Part shown: positions 11,140 to 18,500 of the stretch, in pieces | How the letters are laid out: every line of letters starts with the position of its first letter | Position numbering within the stretch: the stretch's first letter is position 1 | Source: Isoptericola halotolerans | Lineage (GTDB): Bacteria > Actinomycetota > Actinomycetes > Actinomycetales > Cellulomonadaceae | DNA: 64,000 bases | Reading direction: 5' to 3' | Assembly (NCBI RefSeq): GCF_013149785.1 | Contig: NZ_JABEZU010000001.1 | Span: forward strand, 930,001 to 994,000 | Made by a program: the position numbers and the translations under genes | The notes under the pieces: model-generated | The model's input: only the letters and a program-made list of their open reading frames with translations | The model's database searches: none | What the model was told of the DNA's origin: nothing

Positions 11140-11691
11140 ATGACCCACGATCAGCTGCCCGAGGACGCCCTCGCCGTGGTGGACCCGTCCCGGCCGATGG
11201 TGCTCAGGACGCGACGCGTGCGGGCGTTCCTGCTGGCGCTGGCCGCGCTGGTCGGTGTGCTGGTCGGCCTGGTGATGGCCGTCGGCGAGGAGCCCGTCGC
11301 GACCCGGGTCTTCGGCGTCGTCGTCGTGATGCTGTCGCTCTACGCCGTCTGGGTGCTGCTGCGGCAGGCCTTCGTCCAGCAGGCCGAGGTCAGGCTCGAC
11401 GATGCCGGGCTGCACATCGAGGGTCACCCGACGATCGCCTGGCAGGAGATCACCGAGCTGTCCGCGGTCACCGTCAGCGGTCAGCCGATGCTGGGCGTCC
11501 ACGTCGAGGACGAGGACGGCCTCCTCGAACGGTTCCCGGCGAAGACCCGTGCACTGGCTCGCGCCAACCGGAAGCTGGCCGGCACGCCGGTGACCGTCGC
11601 GGTCCGGAACTTCGGTACCGGTGTCGAGGAGCTCGGCGCGGCCGTCGAGGTCTACCGGCGGGCCCACACCGCTGAGACCGAGGGATCGTGA
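11140..11691 (+). CDS. Membrane protein with PH-like C-terminal domain, unknown function
   Basis: The 183-residue protein has a good GAGAGGA site before ATG 11140 and a TAGCAT box at 11104-11109. Two transmembrane helices (about 28-47 and 56-75) are followed by a soluble C-terminal segment. That segment's pattern (VRLDDAGLHIEGHPTIAWQEITELSAVTV) resembles the PH-like or STM3941-type domains of small bacterial membrane proteins. It overlaps the next gene by four bases. Function is unknown. Confidence 0.75.
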   Translation: MTHDQLPEDALAVVDPSRPMVLRTRRVRAFLLALAALVGVLVGLVMAVGEEPVATRVFGVVVVMLSLYAVWVLLRQAFVQQAEVRLDDAGLHIEGHPTIAWQEITELSAVTVSGQPMLGVHVEDEDGLLERFPAKTRALARANRKLAGTPVTVAVRNFGTGVEELGAAVEVYRRAHTAETEGS

Positions 11692-12062
11692 CGCAGGGCG
11701 TCGAGGAGGTCGACCGACCTCCGACGGGTGATCGGGTCGCCGGGTGGGTGCTGTTCGGCGGGCAGGCGGTCCTCGCCGTGGTGCTCAGCTACGGCGGGTA
11801 CTTGTGGTGGGCGCTCGTCGGTTTCGGCTGCTCGGACGACTCGGTCGAGGCCTGCGACGCCCTGGACATCGAGGCGGTCATGGGGTTCTTCGCGATCTTC
11901 CCCTGGGTCGTGCTCGTCGGTGCGCTCGTCTGGCTGATCGTCCGGCTCCGACGTCGGCAGCCCATCTGGTGGGTGCCGCTCGTCGCGGGCACGGTGCCCG
12001 TCGGCGTGCTCGTCCTCGGCCTGGTCGTGCACGTCCTCGGCCTGGTCCTGACGTCGTCGTAG
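11688..12062 (+). CDS. Small three-helix membrane protein, unknown
   Basis: A 124-residue protein starts at GTG 11688, overlapping the upstream stop. Three hydrophobic segments at about 17-35, 55-75 and 90-118 make it an integral membrane protein. A Cys pair (GFGCSDDSVEACDAL) in the first outer loop could form a disulfide. No family is recognised. Translational coupling links it to the PH-like membrane protein. It is convergent with the sulfate-assimilation operon, with only seven bases between stops. Confidence 0.7.
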   Translation: MTQGVEEVDRPPTGDRVAGWVLFGGQAVLAVVLSYGGYLWWALVGFGCSDDSVEACDALDIEAVMGFFAIFPWVVLVGALVWLIVRLRRRQPIWWVPLVAGTVPVGVLVLGLVVHVLGLVLTSS

Positions 12063-12069
12063 GCGACGG

Positions 12070-12777
12070 TCAGCGGGCGGTGCGGTAGCGCTCGACGACC
12101 ACGTCGACCATCTCGTCGGGTGCGGCGGCGTCGGGCAGCAGCAGCGGGCCGGTGGTGACGTCGCCGCCGGCCTTCTCCGCCAGCGTCTGGAAGTAGCCGG
12201 GCGCGATGAGGTAGCTCGCGGTGACCACGCGGGTACCGGGATGCTCGGCTCGCACGGCCGCGACGACGTCGGGCACCCGCGGGGTGGCGTTGGCGATGTA
12301 GCCCACGCTCACCGGGTGCCCGGTGCGCTCGGCGAGCGACGTCCCCATGCGTTCGCAGTCGGCCACCGCGCGGTCGTCGGAGGAGCCGGCGGCGGCGAGG
12401 ACGATGACGTCACCGTCGGCGAGGCCGGCCTCGGTGAGCCGGCGCTCGAGGAGGTCGACGAGCCGCGGGTCCGGGCCGAGCGCTCCGGCGAGGGTCACGT
12501 CGCGGCCCTGGGCCAGCGCCGCGTCGACGTCCTCGCGCAGGTCGACGTGGACGTGGAACCCGGCGGACAGCAGCAGCGGCACGATGACGGTGCGCCCGTC
12601 GCGGAGCCCGTCGAGGCAGGTGGGGACGTCGGGCTGCTGCACGTCGACGAACCCGGCGTGCACCGGCGCCTCGCCGGCGAGGCGGTCGGCGACGGCGTCG
12701 ACCAGGGTGGCGACGGCGCCCGCGCCCACGGGCGAGGAGGTGCCGTGCGAGATCGCGAGGAGGGTCGGTGCGGTCAT
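12070..12777 (-). CDS. Sirohydrochlorin chelatase-like protein (CbiX/SirB family)
   Basis: This 235-residue class-II chelatase-type protein has two half-domains. The N-terminal half holds ISHGTSSPVG, with the metal-binding His near residue 9, and GFVDVQQPDVPTCLD. The C-terminal half holds SVGYIANATPRVPDVV and SYLIAPGYFQTLAEKAGG. ATG 12777 is chosen because the upstream in-frame extension has no family match. It is last in the sir-cysH-cysG operon, so iron insertion for siroheme is the likely role. A cobalt role is possible, but no cobalamin genes are nearby. Confidence 0.88.
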   Translation of the reverse strand: MTAPTLLAISHGTSSPVGAGAVATLVDAVADRLAGEAPVHAGFVDVQQPDVPTCLDGLRDGRTVIVPLLLSAGFHVHVDLREDVDAALAQGRDVTLAGALGPDPRLVDLLERRLTEAGLADGDVIVLAAAGSSDDRAVADCERMGTSLAERTGHPVSVGYIANATPRVPDVVAAVRAEHPGTRVVTASYLIAPGYFQTLAEKAGGDVTTGPLLLPDAAAPDEMVDVVVERYRTAR

Positions 12778-12834
12778 GTCCGCCACGCTACGCGGCGAAA
12801 GCGTTCGCGGGGGTGACACCCGTGTGACGCCCGG

Positions 12835-14094
12835 TCACGACGTGCTCACGGCGTCGTGCCCGGCGGCGTGAGGTTCCCAGTCGGGGCACAGGCGCACGAC
12901 GTCGCCCACCACGGTGACCGCCGGGGGCTGCACCCCGGCTGCGGCGGCACGCCCGGCGATGGTCGCCAGGGTCCCGAGCGTGACGCGCTGCCGCGGGCCG
13001 TACCCGTCCTCCACCACGGCGACCGGGGTCTCGGCGGGGCGACCGGCCGAGACCAGCGCCTCGGCCGTCCGCGCCAGCCGGGTGACGCCCATGAGCAGCA
13101 CCAGCGTGTGATCCGTCCCGCCGGGGACGTCGTCCAGGGCCTCGTGGGCCGTCAGCACGCTGAACCCGGCGGCCACGCCACGGTGCGTCACGGGGATGCC
13201 GACGGCGGCGGGCACCGAGACCGCGGACGTCACGCCGGGCACCACCTCGACCTCGACGCCCGCCGCGCGGCAGGCGGCGACCTCCTCGCCGCCACGGCCG
13301 AACACGTACGGGTCGCCGCCCTTGAGCCGCACCACGTCCCGGCCGGCCCGGGCGTGCTCGACCAGGAGCTCGTTGATGCGCTCCTGCGGTACCGGGTGGT
13401 TGCCGGACGCCTTGCCCACGTCGATCACCTCGACGTCGTCCGCGAGCGTCGTCAGCAGCGACCGCGGTCCGAGCCGGTCCACGACGACGACGTCGGCGCT
13501 CGCCAGGAGCCGGCGCCCGCGGCCGGTGACCAGTCCCGGCGCGCCGGGCCCACCACCGACCAGGGCGACCCGGCCGGGGCGGGTGCCGCCGTCCTCACCC
13601 CGGGAGTCGTCGAGCCGTGCGCGGACGCGCCGCAGCGGCAGCTCGCCGGCCGCCAGGGACGCGGCGACCGCGTCCCGGAGGCGCACGGCGCGGCGGGGGT
13701 CCCGGCCGGCGTGGACCGCGACGGTCACGTCCTCGAGCCGGGTGACCGCCGGCACCCACGCCGAGGCGGCCGCTGCGTCGGAGGCGACGACGCAGAACGT
13801 CCGCGCTGCCTCGGCGTCGGCGGCCACGGCGGTGTCCACGGCCGGGTCACCGGTCGCGGTGTGGACCAGCCAGGCGCCGTCGAGGTCACCGACCGTGTAG
13901 CCGCGGGGCCGGTGCTCGACGGTGCCGTCCGCGACGAGCGCGGCGAGGCCCTCGCTCAGCGCGGGGGCCACGACGCGCACCCGGGCGCCGGCGTCGAGCA
14001 GGCCACGGACCCGGCGTGCGGCGACCGGCCCGCCGCCGACGACGACGACGAGCCGGCCGTGCACGCGCAGGCCGAGGGGGTAGAGGTCGCTCAC
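12835..14094 (-). CDS. cysG: Siroheme synthase: precorrin-2 dehydrogenase / uroporphyrinogen-III methyltransferase fusion
   Basis: A 419-residue bifunctional enzyme makes siroheme precursors from uroporphyrinogen III. The N-terminal Met8p-like NAD domain (about 1-150) has [21 protein letters not shown] and [10 protein letters not shown]. The C-terminal SUMT domain (about 165-405) has [18 protein letters not shown], the SAM-binding [40 protein letters not shown] and LVLLMGV. GTG 14094 is taken as the start because GAGGA lies upstream and the homology begins at once. It supplies the siroheme cofactor to the sulfite reductase of the same operon. Confidence 0.93.
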
Positions 14095-14122
14095 GACGCT
14101 GATCCTCGCAGGCTCGGACGGC

Positions 14123-15007
14123 TCAGATGTGCAGGCCGCACTCGGACTTGTCCGCACCGGACCAACGACCGGCACGGGCGTCCTCGCCCGGGGCGACACG
14201 ACGGGTGCAGGGCTCGCAGCCGATCGACGGGTACCCGTCGTTCAGGAGCGGGTTGACCGTGAGCCCGTGGGCCAGCGCGTAGCCGACCAGCTCGTCGTCC
14301 GACCAGGCGGCGATGGGGTTGATCTTCACCAGGTTGTTCGACGCGTCCCACGAGACCAGCTCGGCCGAGGCACGCGAGCCGGAGTCGGCACGGCGGACGC
14401 CCGTGGCCCAGGCCTCGTAGCCGGAGAGGATGTCCCTCATGGGTTCGACCTTGCGGATCCGGCAGCAGGCCTCGGGGTCCCGGGCGAACAGGTCGGGGCC
14501 GTAGGCCTCGGCCTGCTGCGCGACGCTGAGCCGCGGACGGACGTCGACGATCGTCACGTCGAGCTGGTGCGCGACCGCGTCGCGGGTGCCCAGCGTCTCC
14601 GCGAAGTGGTAGCCGGTGTCGCCGAACAGGACGTCCACCCAGGGCAGCTGCTCGCTGACGAGCGCGGACAGCACGGAGTCGGTCATGGAGGACGCGACCG
14701 CGAGGGAGTCGCCGAACTGCTCGACGGCCCACGCGATGACGTCGTGCGCGCTCGCCTCGTCCGGCGATCCGATCCCGGACCCGCCCAGCTCGCGCCGCCC
14801 GCGGGCGGCGATCTGGCTCAGCTCGGCGTCCGAGCGACGGCGACGCTCGCGGCCGTCGACACGGGCACGTCGCCGAGCGCGGGACTGCTCCCGCTCGGCC
14901 GCGCGGCGCTTGGCCGCCTCGGCGGCGCCGGCCAGCGAGGAGCTGGCCCCCGCGGGTGCGCCGGTGGCGTTCGGGCCCACCCCGAGGGCGACCGAGACGG
15001 CCGTCAC
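14123..15007 (-). CDS. cysH: Assimilatory adenylyl-sulfate (APS) reductase
   Basis: This 294-residue enzyme reduces adenylyl sulfate to sulfite with thioredoxin. The iron-sulfur cysteines typical of APS (not PAPS) reductases are present: CCRIRKVEPM at about 180 and GCEPCTRRV at about 263-266, with the catalytic SECGLH at the C-terminus. GTG 15007 overlaps the sir stop by four bases. The first 70 residues are Ala/Arg-rich and low in complexity; conserved homology begins around ASAHDVIAWAVEQFG, so the true start could be internal. No sulfate adenylyltransferase genes are seen here. Confidence 0.93.
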   Translation of the reverse strand: MTAVSVALGVGPNATGAPAGASSSLAGAAEAAKRRAAEREQSRARRRARVDGRERRRRSDAELSQIAARGRRELGGSGIGSPDEASAHDVIAWAVEQFGDSLAVASSMTDSVLSALVSEQLPWVDVLFGDTGYHFAETLGTRDAVAHQLDVTIVDVRPRLSVAQQAEAYGPDLFARDPEACCRIRKVEPMRDILSGYEAWATGVRRADSGSRASAELVSWDASNNLVKINPIAAWSDDELVGYALAHGLTVNPLLNDGYPSIGCEPCTRRVAPGEDARAGRWSGADKSECGLHI

Positions 15008-16746
15008 TGCAGCGCCTCCTCGTCGGCCCGGTGCGCCCACTGGGCGAACGTCTCGGTACCGTCCCGGTCCGACTCGTAGCGACGCACGACCCGTTCGACG
15101 TAGTCGGCCAGGTCGGTGGACGGCACCTTGAGCCCGCGCACCGTGCGGCCCAGCTCGGCGGTGTCGCGTCCCTTCTCGACGAGGCCGCCGCCCAGGTGCA
15201 CCTGGAACCCCGGCACCTGCTCGCCGTCGACCGTGATGATCTGGCCCTTGAGGCCGATGTCCGCCGTCTGGATCCGGGCGCACGAGTTGGGGCAGCCGTT
15301 GACGTTGAGGGAGATGGGCCGGCCCAGGCGCGCCTCGACGTCGCCGAGCCGGTCCTCGAGCTCGCCGATGACCCGGGCTGCCGTGTCCTTGGTCTCCACG
15401 ATCGCCAGCTTGCAGTACTCGATGCCGGTGCAGGCGATCGTGGATCGCCGGAACAGGCTGGGCCGGGCCGTCAGGCCGAGCGGCTCCAGGCCCTCGACCA
15501 GCTCGTCCACGCGGTCCGCCGGGACGCCGAGGATGACGACCTTCTGGTGGGCGGTCAGTCGGGCGGCCTCCGCGCCGACCTTCTCGACCAGGTCGGCCAG
15601 GCCCGTCAGCGTGCCGCCGCCGACGCGGCCGACGACGGGAGCGGCCCCGACGTAGAACCGCCCGTCCTTCTGCTCGTGGACGCCCACGTGGTCGCCCGGG
15701 CGGGTGGCCGGTGCCGGCGCGGGGCCGTCCGGGAGCTCGTAGCCGAGGTACTCAGACTGGAGAACTTCCCTGAACTTCTCGGTGCCCCAGTCCTTGAGGA
15801 GGAACTTCAGGCGTGCCTTGTTCCGCAGGCGGCGGTACCCGTAGTCGCGGAAGATCTGGACGACCCCGTGCCAGACGTCGGGCGCCTGCTCGGCGGTGAC
15901 GAACACCCCGAGGCGTTCGCCGAGCCGGGGGTTCGTCGACAGCCCGCCGCCGACCCACAGGTCGAAGCCCGCACCGAGCTCGGGGTGACGGACGCCGACG
16001 AGCGAGATGTCGTTGATCTCGTGCACGACGTCCAGGCTGGGGTGCCCCGTGATCGCCGTCTTGAACTTGCGGGGCAGGTTGGCCAGGTCCGGGTCGCCGA
16101 TGTAGCGCTTCTTGATCTCGAGGATGACCGGCGTCGGGTCGAGGATCTCGTCCGCCGCGACGCCGGCCACGGGGCTGCCGAGGAACGGACGGGGAGAGTC
16201 GCCGCACGCCGTCGTCGTCTCGAGGTTCACGGCGTCGAGGCGGCGCCAGATCTCCGGCATGCTCTCGACCTCGATCCAGTGGTACTGGATGTTCTGCCGG
16301 TCGGTGATGTCGGCGCTGCCCCGGGCGAAGTCGGCCGAGATCTCGCCGAGCACGCGCAGTGCGTTCGCGTCGAGGGCCTGCCCGTCGGTGCGCACGCGGA
16401 GCATGAAGTAGCGGTCCTCGAGCTCGTGCGGCTCCAGGGTGGCGGTGCGGCCGCCGTCGATGCCCGGCTTGCGCTGCGTGTACAGCCCCCACCAGCGGAA
16501 ACGTCCGTGCAGGTCGTCACCGGGGATGGAGTCGAAGCCCTCGTGGGCGTAGATGTTCTCGATCCGCTCGCGCACGGCGAGGGAGTCGGACTCCTGCTTG
16601 AACTCCTCGTTGTGGTTCAGCGGGGTCTTGCCGTCGATCTTCCACTGGCCGTTCGGCCGCGCGGCGCGTGCGGGCCGGGCCGGGCGCTCGGAGCGTGCGG
16701 CGGCAGCGTCGGAGGCCTGTTCGGCGGGGGTGGTCTGCGTCGTCAT
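15004..16746 (-). CDS. sir: Ferredoxin-dependent sulfite reductase (NirA/SirA family)
   Basis: This 580-residue siroheme and 4Fe-4S enzyme reduces sulfite to sulfide. Two homologous halves are visible. The cluster and siroheme ligands are CTGIEYC (about 437-443) and NGCPNSC (about 483-487). The pair LYTQRKPG and TTACGDSPR carries the Tyr and Cys that are crosslinked near the active site in mycobacterial SirA, favouring sulfite over nitrite as substrate. Start ATG 16746 is preceded by GAGGAA. Residues 1-30 are Ala/Arg/Pro-rich. It is the first structural gene after the polycysteine leader peptide, so cysteine-responsive control is expected. Confidence 0.95.
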   Translation of the reverse strand: MTTQTTPAEQASDAAAARSERPARPARAARPNGQWKIDGKTPLNHNEEFKQESDSLAVRERIENIYAHEGFDSIPGDDLHGRFRWWGLYTQRKPGIDGGRTATLEPHELEDRYFMLRVRTDGQALDANALRVLGEISADFARGSADITDRQNIQYHWIEVESMPEIWRRLDAVNLETTTACGDSPRPFLGSPVAGVAADEILDPTPVILEIKKRYIGDPDLANLPRKFKTAITGHPSLDVVHEINDISLVGVRHPELGAGFDLWVGGGLSTNPRLGERLGVFVTAEQAPDVWHGVVQIFRDYGYRRLRNKARLKFLLKDWGTEKFREVLQSEYLGYELPDGPAPAPATRPGDHVGVHEQKDGRFYVGAAPVVGRVGGGTLTGLADLVEKVGAEAARLTAHQKVVILGVPADRVDELVEGLEPLGLTARPSLFRRSTIACTGIEYCKLAIVETKDTAARVIGELEDRLGDVEARLGRPISLNVNGCPNSCARIQTADIGLKGQIITVDGEQVPGFQVHLGGGLVEKGRDTAELGRTVRGLKVPSTDLADYVERVVRRYESDRDGTETFAQWAHRADEEALQ

Positions 16747-16878
16747 CCTGGGGGGTTCCTCGGGTCCTCGGGGGGCGGGACGCGCGACGACGAAGGCTCA
16801 GCAGGGGTGGGCCGAGACCGACGGCGCGCGCCGATGCTCAGGTCCGCAGGTGCGGTGGGGGGCTGAGGTGGGGCGCGA

Positions 16879-16983
16879 TCAGCGACAGGAGCACTGACAG
16901 CTGCACATGCGCGTACGCAGGCAGGGGCGCGCCGACATGTCACGACGGGTGGTCGTGAGGGAGCGGGACGCGGCCGTGGTCAT
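16879..16983 (-). CDS. Cysteine-rich leader peptide (putative attenuator of the sulfate operon)
   Basis: A 34-codon reading frame on the minus strand starts at ATG 16983 and ends at TGA 16879, 132 bases before sir. It begins MTTAASRSLTTTRRD and ends CLRTRMCSCQCSCR, with five cysteines in the last 14 residues, four of them in the last eight. A TAGATT box at 16991-16996 sits seven bases before the ATG, giving a leaderless start. Polycysteine leaderless short ORFs of this kind are described upstream of cysteine-related operons in mycobacteria, where slow translation at Cys codons exposes the downstream ribosome site. Of the 373 bases between sir and the next gene at 17119, this is the only coding element seen. 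Confidence 0.85.
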   Translation of the reverse strand: MTTAASRSLTTTRRDMSARPCLRTRMCSCQCSCR

Positions 16984-17118
16984 ACCGAGGAATCTAACCC
17001 GGGATGCCCAGTGCGCGAAACCCCTCGTCCGCATGCTGGGACCGGCGCCACGGAGTGAGACGGTCGGGGGTCTTCGGCGGTGGCCCGACAGGCGGTGCGC
17101 CGCCGATAGGCTGTCGTC

Positions 17119-17490
17119 ATGGAGTTCCTCTACAACGTTCTCACCGTGCTGCACTTCATCGGATGGGCCATCGTCCTGGGGGGCTACCTCGCTTCCCTGC
17201 GCAGCCCGGGCCTGTACCGCGGGGTCTTCCACGGCGCGGCGACGGCGCTGGTCGCGGGTGTGCTGATGGTCGGCGTCGCGGAGATGGGCGGTGTCTGGGG
17301 CGACGACGGCCCCGACATGGCCAAGATCGGCGTGAAGCTGGTCGTCGCCCTCGTCGTCGCGGTGCTGGCGTTCGTGGCCAAGCGCCAGGGCAGCAAGGCG
17401 GACAACGGCACCGGTGCCGTCGCGCCCGCCCTGAAGCACAGCCTCGGCGTGCTCGTGGTGATCAACATCATCGTCGCCGTCTTCTGGTGA
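17119..17490 (+). CDS. Four-helix membrane protein, conserved in actinobacteria, unknown function
   Basis: The 123-residue protein starts at ATG 17119, six bases after TAGGCT (17107-17112), so it is probably translated without a leader. Four hydrophobic segments are seen: residues 4-25 (LTVLHFIGWAIVLGGYLASL), 34-52, 67-88 and 103-123. A basic, polar loop (AKRQGSKADNG) lies before the last helix. No enzymatic motif is present. It stands alone, divergent from the sulfate operon leader. Confidence 0.75.
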   Translation: MEFLYNVLTVLHFIGWAIVLGGYLASLRSPGLYRGVFHGAATALVAGVLMVGVAEMGGVWGDDGPDMAKIGVKLVVALVVAVLAFVAKRQGSKADNGTGAVAPALKHSLGVLVVINIIVAVFW

Positions 17491-17530
17491 CCCGCCCCGA
17501 CCTGGCGCCCCCGCGAGGCGGGCGGGTCCG

Positions 17531-18013
17531 GTGAGCGCTCTCGGCGAGGTCCTCGTCGGTCTCGCGATCGCCGTGGGGCTGGTCGGCATCATCGTCCAGA
17601 TCCTGCCCGGCAACGCCCTCGTGCTCGGCTCCGTGCTCGTGTGGGCCTGGGTCACGGGTGGCACGACCGCCTGGGTCTGCTTCGCGGTGGCCGCGTTGCT
17701 GATCGTCGTCGCGGAGACGGGTCAGTGGCTCCTGGCAGGACGGCACATGCGCCGCGCCGAGGTGCCCTGGTCGACCCTCGCCGTCGGCGGTCTGGCCGCG
17801 GTGGTGGGCTTCTTCGTGGTCCCGGTGATCGGGCTCTTCCTCTTCTTCACCGCCGCTGTGCTCGTCATGGAGTACCTGCGCCGGCGGGACGGCCGGGCTG
17901 CGTGGCGGGCGACCGTGGCCGCGCTGCAGGCGACAGCCATCACCATCGGGATCCAGCTCCTCGGAGGGCTGGCGGCGACGCTCACCTGGGTGGCCGGGCT
18001 GTTCCTGACCTGA
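17531..18013 (+). CDS. DUF456-family membrane protein
   Basis: A 160-residue, largely hydrophobic protein starts at GTG 17531. The Gly-rich N-terminal helix with IIVQILPGNALVLGSVLVWAW matches the DUF456 pattern, in which LPG and a following Trp-rich helix are typical. Four to five helices are predicted, and the tail after about residue 120 carries RRRDGRAAW before a last helix pair. The family is widespread in actinobacteria with no known function. Confidence 0.8.
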   Translation: MSALGEVLVGLAIAVGLVGIIVQILPGNALVLGSVLVWAWVTGGTTAWVCFAVAALLIVVAETGQWLLAGRHMRRAEVPWSTLAVGGLAAVVGFFVVPVIGLFLFFTAAVLVMEYLRRRDGRAAWRATVAALQATAITIGIQLLGGLAATLTWVAGLFLT

Positions 18014-18050
18014 CACCTGCGGGCACGGCGACGGGTGCGACCATGGGGCC

Positions 18051-18491
18051 GTGCAGATCCTCACCCGGCCCCTCGACGCCCTCGACCCCCGGACCGCGTT
18101 CGGCATCTGGCGGCTGCGCCAGGACGTCTTCGTCGTCGAGCAGCGGTGCGCCTACCCCGACCTCGACGACCGTGACCTCGAGCCCGGCACCCGGCACGTC
18201 GTCCTCGTCGACGACGACCGCGTCGTCGGCACGGCCCGGGTCCTCGACGACGGCGACGTCCAGCGCATCGGTCGCGTGGTGTGCCACCCGGACGTGCGGG
18301 GGAGCGGGGCGTCCGGTGAGCTGATGCGCGCCGCCGTCGACGCCGCGACGCAGGCGGCGCCGTCGTCGGACGTGGTGCTGGGCGCGCAGTCGCCGCTCGT
18401 GGGCTGGTACGCGACGTTCGGCTTCGCTCCCGACGGGCCGGAGTACCTCGAGGACGACATCCCCCACACCCCGATGCGACTGCAGCGCTGA
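18051..18491 (+). CDS. ElaA-like GNAT N-acetyltransferase
   Basis: This 146-residue acetyltransferase starts at GTG 18051. The ElaA-type opening is clear: a FGIWRLRQDVFVVEQRCAYPD block, then DLEPGTRHVV. The acetyl-CoA-binding region is RIGRVVCHPDVRGSGASGELM (about 82-102), and GWYATFGFAPDGPEYLEDDIPHTPM closes the domain. The substrate is unknown. The gene is convergent with the DUF389 gene, leaving nine bases between stops. Confidence 0.87.
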   Translation: MQILTRPLDALDPRTAFGIWRLRQDVFVVEQRCAYPDLDDRDLEPGTRHVVLVDDDRVVGTARVLDDGDVQRIGRVVCHPDVRGSGASGELMRAAVDAATQAAPSSDVVLGAQSPLVGWYATFGFAPDGPEYLEDDIPHTPMRLQR

Positions 18492-18500
18492 CCGGCGGGC

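Follow-up and report, generated by a model that had tools for sequence, protein, structure and literature searches.

The stretch analysed, hereafter the window, is 64,000 nucleotides (nt) of Isoptericola halotolerans (contig NZ_JABEZU010000001.1, positions 930,001 to 994,000), and it carries, upstream of the sulfite reductase gene sir, a short open reading frame (ORF) ending in a run of cysteine (Cys) codons. All features given below lie on the minus strand, with positions counted in the window. The leader ORF (16983-16879, ATG to TGA; sequence MTTAASRSLTTTRRDMSARPCLRTRMCSCQCSCR) has 34 codons and encodes MTTAA...MCSCQCSCR. Its codons 27 to 33, TGC AGC TGT CAG TGC TCC TGT, form the Cys tract (16885-16905), with TGT as the final Cys codon, and five Cys in 34 codons had p ~2e-6 when the Cys frequency of ten ORFs of the window was the reference. 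A -10 element, TAGATT (16996-16991), ended 7 nt ahead of the leader ATG and pointed to a leaderless start. A spacer of 132 nt separated the leader ORF from the ATG of sir (15004-16746, with the ATG at 16746), which encodes a ferredoxin sulfite/nitrite reductase of the NirA type (best PDB match 1zj8, NirA, expectation value (E) 1.3e-210). Downstream of sir came cysH-like, cysG-like and then sirohydrochlorin-chelatase-like ORFs, the last so labelled from weak, below-cut-off matches alone, and the leader accordingly stands ahead of genes of cysteine metabolism. An earlier note made from the letters of the window had described the 34-codon ORF, the TAGATT and the 132-nt distance to sir, and all were present as claimed. 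The comparisons that follow confirmed the leader ORF as genuine and more than a product of chance.

Relatives were surveyed at 39 sir loci (30 from a search of 58 genomes, 44 of which gave any match, plus 9 more), and the 400 nt upstream of sir were scanned for short ORFs with at least three Cys among the final 12 residues. Such ORFs were present at 25 of the 39 loci; dinucleotide shuffles predicted 0.4, and the opposite strand had 1. They occurred at 20 of the 21 loci of the group already recognised as homologous, the one miss (L022) being truncated by a contig end, and at 5 of the 18 remaining loci. A covariance model of the leader matched 44 of 221 genomes of the family at E ≤ 0.01, and 43 once a false match in G101 was dropped on inspection (18 of the Isoptericola group, g1; 16 Cellulosimicrobium; 7 of genus g44; 1 Oerskovia; 1 Antribacter). 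The leader occupied one place per genome, save in G007, with two places on two small contigs, and the model gave a single real copy in the genome of the window. The detailed set comprised 42 sequences, one per genome, and G007 was left out because no Shine-Dalgarno sequence was found in its pieces. A TANNNT element was kept at -13 in 42 of 42 leaders, in agreement with the leaderless start claimed in the earlier note; the leaders would thereby have the start that marks polycysteine ORFs, the transcription start itself being presumed from this geometry.

At the level of the order, 396 genomes were searched and 11 matched the model; nine of these belonged to g1 and g44, two genera already found. 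Weak matches outside the family were given by L179 (in genome G373) and by G581, both of family f17 (E 0.003 and 0.006). Records carrying the spacer motif were from Isoptericola, Cellulosimicrobium, Oerskovia, Antribacter and Krasilnikoviella, plus one titled Sphaerisporangium. The record titled Sphaerisporangium cinnabarinum ATCC 31213 (L105) had a Cellulosimicrobium-type leader whose peptide and promoter stretch were identical to those of L072, and its name is probably wrong.

Distinct leader ORFs numbered 33 and fell into seven length classes between 87 and 105 nt. The earlier note had made its proposal depend on conservation of the Cys codons in relatives, and a terminal Cys tract was found in all 33; every leader sequence also passed a filter of three Cys in the final 14. 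In alignment A2, judged by eye, length differences within the ORF came in threes and those in the spacer did not. The tract read CQCCCR or CLCCCR in 15 of 17 leaders of the Isoptericola group, LSCCR in 14 of 16 of Cellulosimicrobium and CCCC in 7 of 7 of g44. The nearest relative, L048, ended in CSCQCCCR versus CSCQCSCR in the window, a single Cys-to-Ser change (TGC to TCC). The earlier description of the Cys codons as interspersed rather than consecutive was accurate for the window and for L059, but not for the same 15 of 17 Isoptericola-group leaders, in which three Cys codons were contiguous. Elsewhere in the genome of the window, the poly-Cys pattern TGYTGYTGYNNNTGA had 6 matches against 11 for its reversed control, with no convincing leader among them, and no leader turned up in the cysD stretch, where solely ORFs of 150 amino acids or longer were considered.

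In H1, a hairpin within the ORF (nt 25-45; 16939-16959), all 42 sequences kept standard pairing at 7 of the 8 pairs; the outermost pair was standard in 38 of 42, and not in the window. At four pairs both sides had changed, which amounts to covariation. Conservation of the start geometry, the Cys tract, the frame and H1 thus gave good support, by comparison of sequences, to the proposal of the earlier note that the sir operon has a leaderless Cys leader which diverges from those of mycobacteria.

The spacer was conserved, yet showed little covariation. Directly 3' of the stop codon, segment alpha, CGCGCC (16872-16877), could pair with segment B1 in leader folds, with no support from covariation because its core was invariant. 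The conserved segment 1, CTCAG (16863-16867), was followed by the conserved segment 2, CTGAG (16837-16841), complementary to segments 1 and 3, and by B1, GGCGCGCG (16825-16832). Segment 3, CTCGGC (16811-16816), which read CTC(A/G)GC across relatives, could pair with the conserved segment 4, GCTGAG (16797-16802). Segment D, CGCGCGTC (16779-16786), could pair with B1, and the region CCGAGGACCCGAGGA (16757-16771) contained the Shine-Dalgarno sequence of sir.

With one sequence per genus, pairing of B1 with D was stronger than with shuffled partners in four of five genera (shuffle fraction 0.000-0.030); Antribacter, at 0.076, was marginal. In g44, B1 was GGGCGCGCG and D was CGCGTGCCC or CGTGTGCCC, so that the sequence was altered and the pairing retained. 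Segments 3 and 4 had a shuffle fraction of at most 0.05 in 12 of 16 sequences tested. Segment 3 was altered in L061, of the Isoptericola group (GGCCGGTGG), which weakened pairings that most other leaders keep. The earlier note had put forward a different stem, overlapping segment 3, between GGUCUCGG (16812-16819) and CCGAGGACC (16763-16771). This stem, a weaker part of the earlier interpretation, was present in the window, pairing with one bulge at -10.2 kcal/mol, but was not generally conserved: it reached a shuffle fraction of at most 0.05 in 5 of 17 sequences tested, with a perfect match of 9 base pairs in L052, L053 and L060 (0.000-0.025), and was not special against shuffles in the window (0.172), L061 (0.61), L080 (0.32) or L082 of g44 (0.32).

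Cys-tailed ORFs were also present upstream of cysK, the next step towards cysteine. In the genome of the window, an ORF encoding MTTALPFG...MSACRCR lay 335 to 224 nt upstream of cysK (L135). Among the best 30 loci of a search that matched 56 of 58 genomes, 24 had an upstream ORF with at least three Cys in the final 12 residues (0.1 expected, 0 on the other strand), and 27 had one with at least two Cys in the final 6 (0.5 expected, 2 on the other strand). Start codons were picked in favour of either signal, Shine-Dalgarno or leaderless; on this basis 24 of the 27 loci with an ORF had a Shine-Dalgarno sequence and 1 had leaderless geometry, and cysteine leaders here are therefore not all leaderless. 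These ORFs were counted in favour of cysteine sensing at sir. In L135 and most of L136-L163, the Shine-Dalgarno-led, Cys-tailed ORF upstream of cysK was followed by a stem in covarying forms. These forms, 3' of the stop codon of the leader, were AGCGTC/GACGCT, AGCGCTGG/CCAGCGCT and AGCGTTGAC/GTCAACGCT. The closing stem reached 6 pairs or more in 25 of 27, and only its covarying forms were suggestive, because a fraction of 0.375 of the shuffles did the same.

The Cys codons of the leaders were biased to UGU. UGU made up 109 of 205 Cys codons in the 42 sir leaders (82 of 168 when each of the 33 distinct ORFs is counted once) and 38 of 116 in the cysK leaders, against 2 of 166 in the sir and cysK genes themselves (39 sir, some partial, and 30 cysK) and 0 of 22 in ten ORFs of the window. 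The final Cys codon was UGU in 33 of 33 distinct sir leaders and in 26 of 27 cysK leaders. Class-wide, sir was found in 171 of 217 genomes, and 60 were taken from among the matches listed, spread over families. A scan by Cys count, for which mononucleotide shuffles predicted 0.97, gave leaders in 13 of the 60, and leaderless geometry was seen in none of the 13. A scan with an L-V-x-R-H-type motif, derived from the results of the Cys-count scan, gave leaders in 41 of the 60 on the sense strand and 0 on the antisense strand, of which only 5 passed the TANNNT test. In these 41 leaders UGU accounted for 57 of 73 Cys codons and for 34 of 41 final Cys codons, and in the sir genes of 20 of the same genomes for 3 of 122. 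The bias was thus common to leaders of differing make-up, namely leaderless sir leaders, Shine-Dalgarno-led cysK leaders and class-wide LVxRRHVD sir leaders. Fisher values for it overstated significance, because related sequences are not independent. The leader sets concerned were L040-L089, L135-L163 and L186-L239, and the bias was strongest at the final Cys codon.

UGU is read through wobble by a single tRNA-Cys. It is a tentative suggestion, more doubtful than probable, that actinomycete Cys attenuators sense via UGU, so that the speed at which UGU in particular is decoded, and not simply that of Cys codons at large, sets the response. UGU, nearly absent from the structural genes examined, would then be kept at the regulatory Cys position as a hypersensitive site at the level of the codon. 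No statement of a UGU bias in actinomycete Cys leaders was found in the literature searched; Canestrari 2020 was outside that search and may state it.

The best reading of the locus, with a probability of roughly 0.78, is a cis-acting, cysteine-sensing, ribosome-mediated attenuation leader of the sulfite reductase operon. Transcription would begin at the A of the leader ATG, giving a bare 5' end that a ribosome could enter directly to translate the 34 codons. With Cys-tRNA scarce, the ribosome would slow on the Cys tract just ahead of the stop codon, and its position would select among alternative helices in the spacer, by which sir would be expressed or not. As to the direction and the level of this presumptive switch, control of sir translation is favoured over transcription termination. 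The precedent invoked in the earlier note, polycysteine leaderless ORFs acting as cysteine attenuators in mycobacteria, is real: cysteine-responsive attenuation in M. smegmatis is attributed to Canestrari 2020, at second hand, in passages of PMC9094748, PMC9031893 and PMC13236596.

Several results of the structural analysis weigh against this reading. Of the 34 pairs that RNAalifold predicted on 20 sequences (Cys tract plus spacer), just 2 had changes on both sides, and the covariation term was -0.02. The stability of the spacer was ordinary (z -1.42; 17 of 200 shuffles as good), as was that of a subregion of it (z -0.42; 71 of 200). Swaps of B1 and D between genera weakened the pairing in some directions and strengthened it in others. 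When RNA was removed up to the leading edge of a ribosome at 12 positions in 20 sequences (L026 left out), accessibility of the Shine-Dalgarno sequence was unchanged, with predicted means of 0.40-0.45 with the ribosome and 0.43 without. Masking of the ribosome footprint in 42 sequences, under equilibrium folding, likewise gave no consistent shift in accessibility of the ribosome site. Masking increased B1:D pairing in Cellulosimicrobium, where the expected pairs went up from 0.4 to 1.0-3.4, a result that counts in favour of the reading; in g44 it did so at some positions. In Isoptericola (0.2 expected pairs, rising to no more than 1.5), in Oerskovia and in Antribacter there was no consistent increase, and in the window the pairing hardly rose. 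Sequestration of the Shine-Dalgarno sequence by D, favoured after folding, was dropped, as D paired with the ribosome site no better than shuffles did (fraction 0.30-0.46). Since modelling gave no consistent shift in accessibility, the likeness to mycobacterial attenuators rests on anatomy and precedent, and the cysteine-responsive switch is, as far as the models go, an unproven proposal.

Transcription attenuation, a variant counted within the probability given above, appears rather unlikely. A hairpin of B1 and D, or Rho acting on C-rich RNA 3' of the stop codon, would terminate transcription unless the ribosome stalls on the Cys tract. Folding of 11 sequences gave this hairpin a predicted energy of -27 to -44 kcal/mol, its pairing exceeded shuffles in the four genera noted, and segments 1:2, 2:3 and 3:4 were mutually complementary in the fashion of a trp attenuator; but the hairpin had no trailing U-tract, D being followed by C-rich sequence. 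The mycobacterial mechanism of 2020 also speaks for another route, as a structure in the spacer there reportedly masks the downstream ribosome site until the ribosome stalls. For the mycobacterial cys leaders, Rho was proposed in 2005 (PMC1262725), although the prediction is graded as rather weak in the passage concerned.

The ORF might also merely couple translation or transcription to sir, with no sensing of cysteine; the evidence for a cysteine response being sequence-based throughout leaves room for this, but the recurrence of the Cys tract and of its codon choice, cysK leaders included, makes it improbable. It is slightly less probable still that the peptide itself acts as a sensor of thiols or metals, with the Cys mattering as residues. 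Recurring CXC patterns would suit such a sensor, but the spacing and number of the Cys varied among genera while UGU and the location just ahead of the stop codon were constant, and part of the N-terminal half was bound up with H1. Short ORFs abound in GC-rich DNA, but a chance ORF was refuted by the conservation and the shuffle controls, and its probability is negligible.

Upstream of the -10 element, a predicted operator-like site, TCCCAGCATGCGGAC (also given as TCCCANNATGYGGAC; 17027-17041), was conserved at a fixed distance from the leader. Regular-expression matches to it lay at -58 in 17 of 17 sequences of the Isoptericola group and at -57 in 12 of 16 of Cellulosimicrobium, with none in the other 13 of the 42. 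A search for a regulon of this site in the genome of the window gave 2 exact matches, one of them at sir, and with at most 2 mismatches 115 matches versus 86 for a reversed control; no recognisable sulfur gene was seen by eye at the 11 non-sir places inspected.

Ms4527A is, presumably, the leader ahead of sirA of M. smegmatis. Like the ORFs of the Ms4527A family (NF042936) and of Canestrari 2020, those found here combine a Cys tract adjoining the stop codon with a leaderless start; unlike them, the Cys of the window were interspersed. The presumed mycobacterial sir leaders of the set were likewise rich in UGU among their Cys codons, and two of them scored 50.3 bits (cut-off 45) and 42.9 against NF042936. 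An L-V-x-x-R-H spacing, LVTTRHE in the relatives here and LVARRHVD in the Ms4527A family, was common by eye and may, on that visual comparison, indicate homology. The ORF of the window matched 0 families of NCBIfam at E ≤ 1 (NF042936, Ms4527A, and NF042934, putative leader peptide, included), and two relatives' sir leaders, of types L052 and L067, as well as the cysK leader from the genome of the window matched 0 at E ≤ 10. The leader RNA matched no Rfam family at E ≤ 1, the lone match in 11500-18500 (E 0.69) falling outside the leader.

Candidate Cys leader peptides were described in Mycobacterium, P. acnes and B. longum by Seliverstov 2005 (PMC1262725), and those set out in the passages concerned resemble the ORFs here in being short, with Cys runs near the stop codon and a position upstream of cys or cbs genes; unlike them, the leaders here have a covarying hairpin within the ORF and conserved segments in the spacer. 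Trp-type attenuators likewise carry regulatory codons in a leader ORF, followed downstream by segments complementary to one another, and differ from the present leaders, which have leaderless initiation and a hairpin lacking the terminator U-tract. The upstream ORF uORFC-8-2, before cysS in Rhodobacterales, also has tandem Cys codons according to the relevant part of PMC8632094, but it is alphaproteobacterial, with an intrinsic terminator and UGC dominant, where UGU was prominent here.

The class of leader is already known (Seliverstov 2005; Canestrari 2020); what appears to be new are the Shine-Dalgarno-led Cys leaders of cysK and the UGU bias. On the present results, the range of cysteine leader control would take in the Isoptericola group, Cellulosimicrobium, Oerskovia, Antribacter and genus g44, whose leader goes unrecognised by NCBIfam and Rfam. 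Through the UGU bias it can be asked, sharply and cheaply, whether the choice among synonymous codons determines how sensitive a natural sensor of an amino acid is. Among leaders in the literature, that of metL in S. lividans, MSTTSDRTPATEATTTPGARCMCRRMCAF, is related to methionine in the part of PMC8079986 concerned, and its CMCRRMC end was more like that of a Cys leader.
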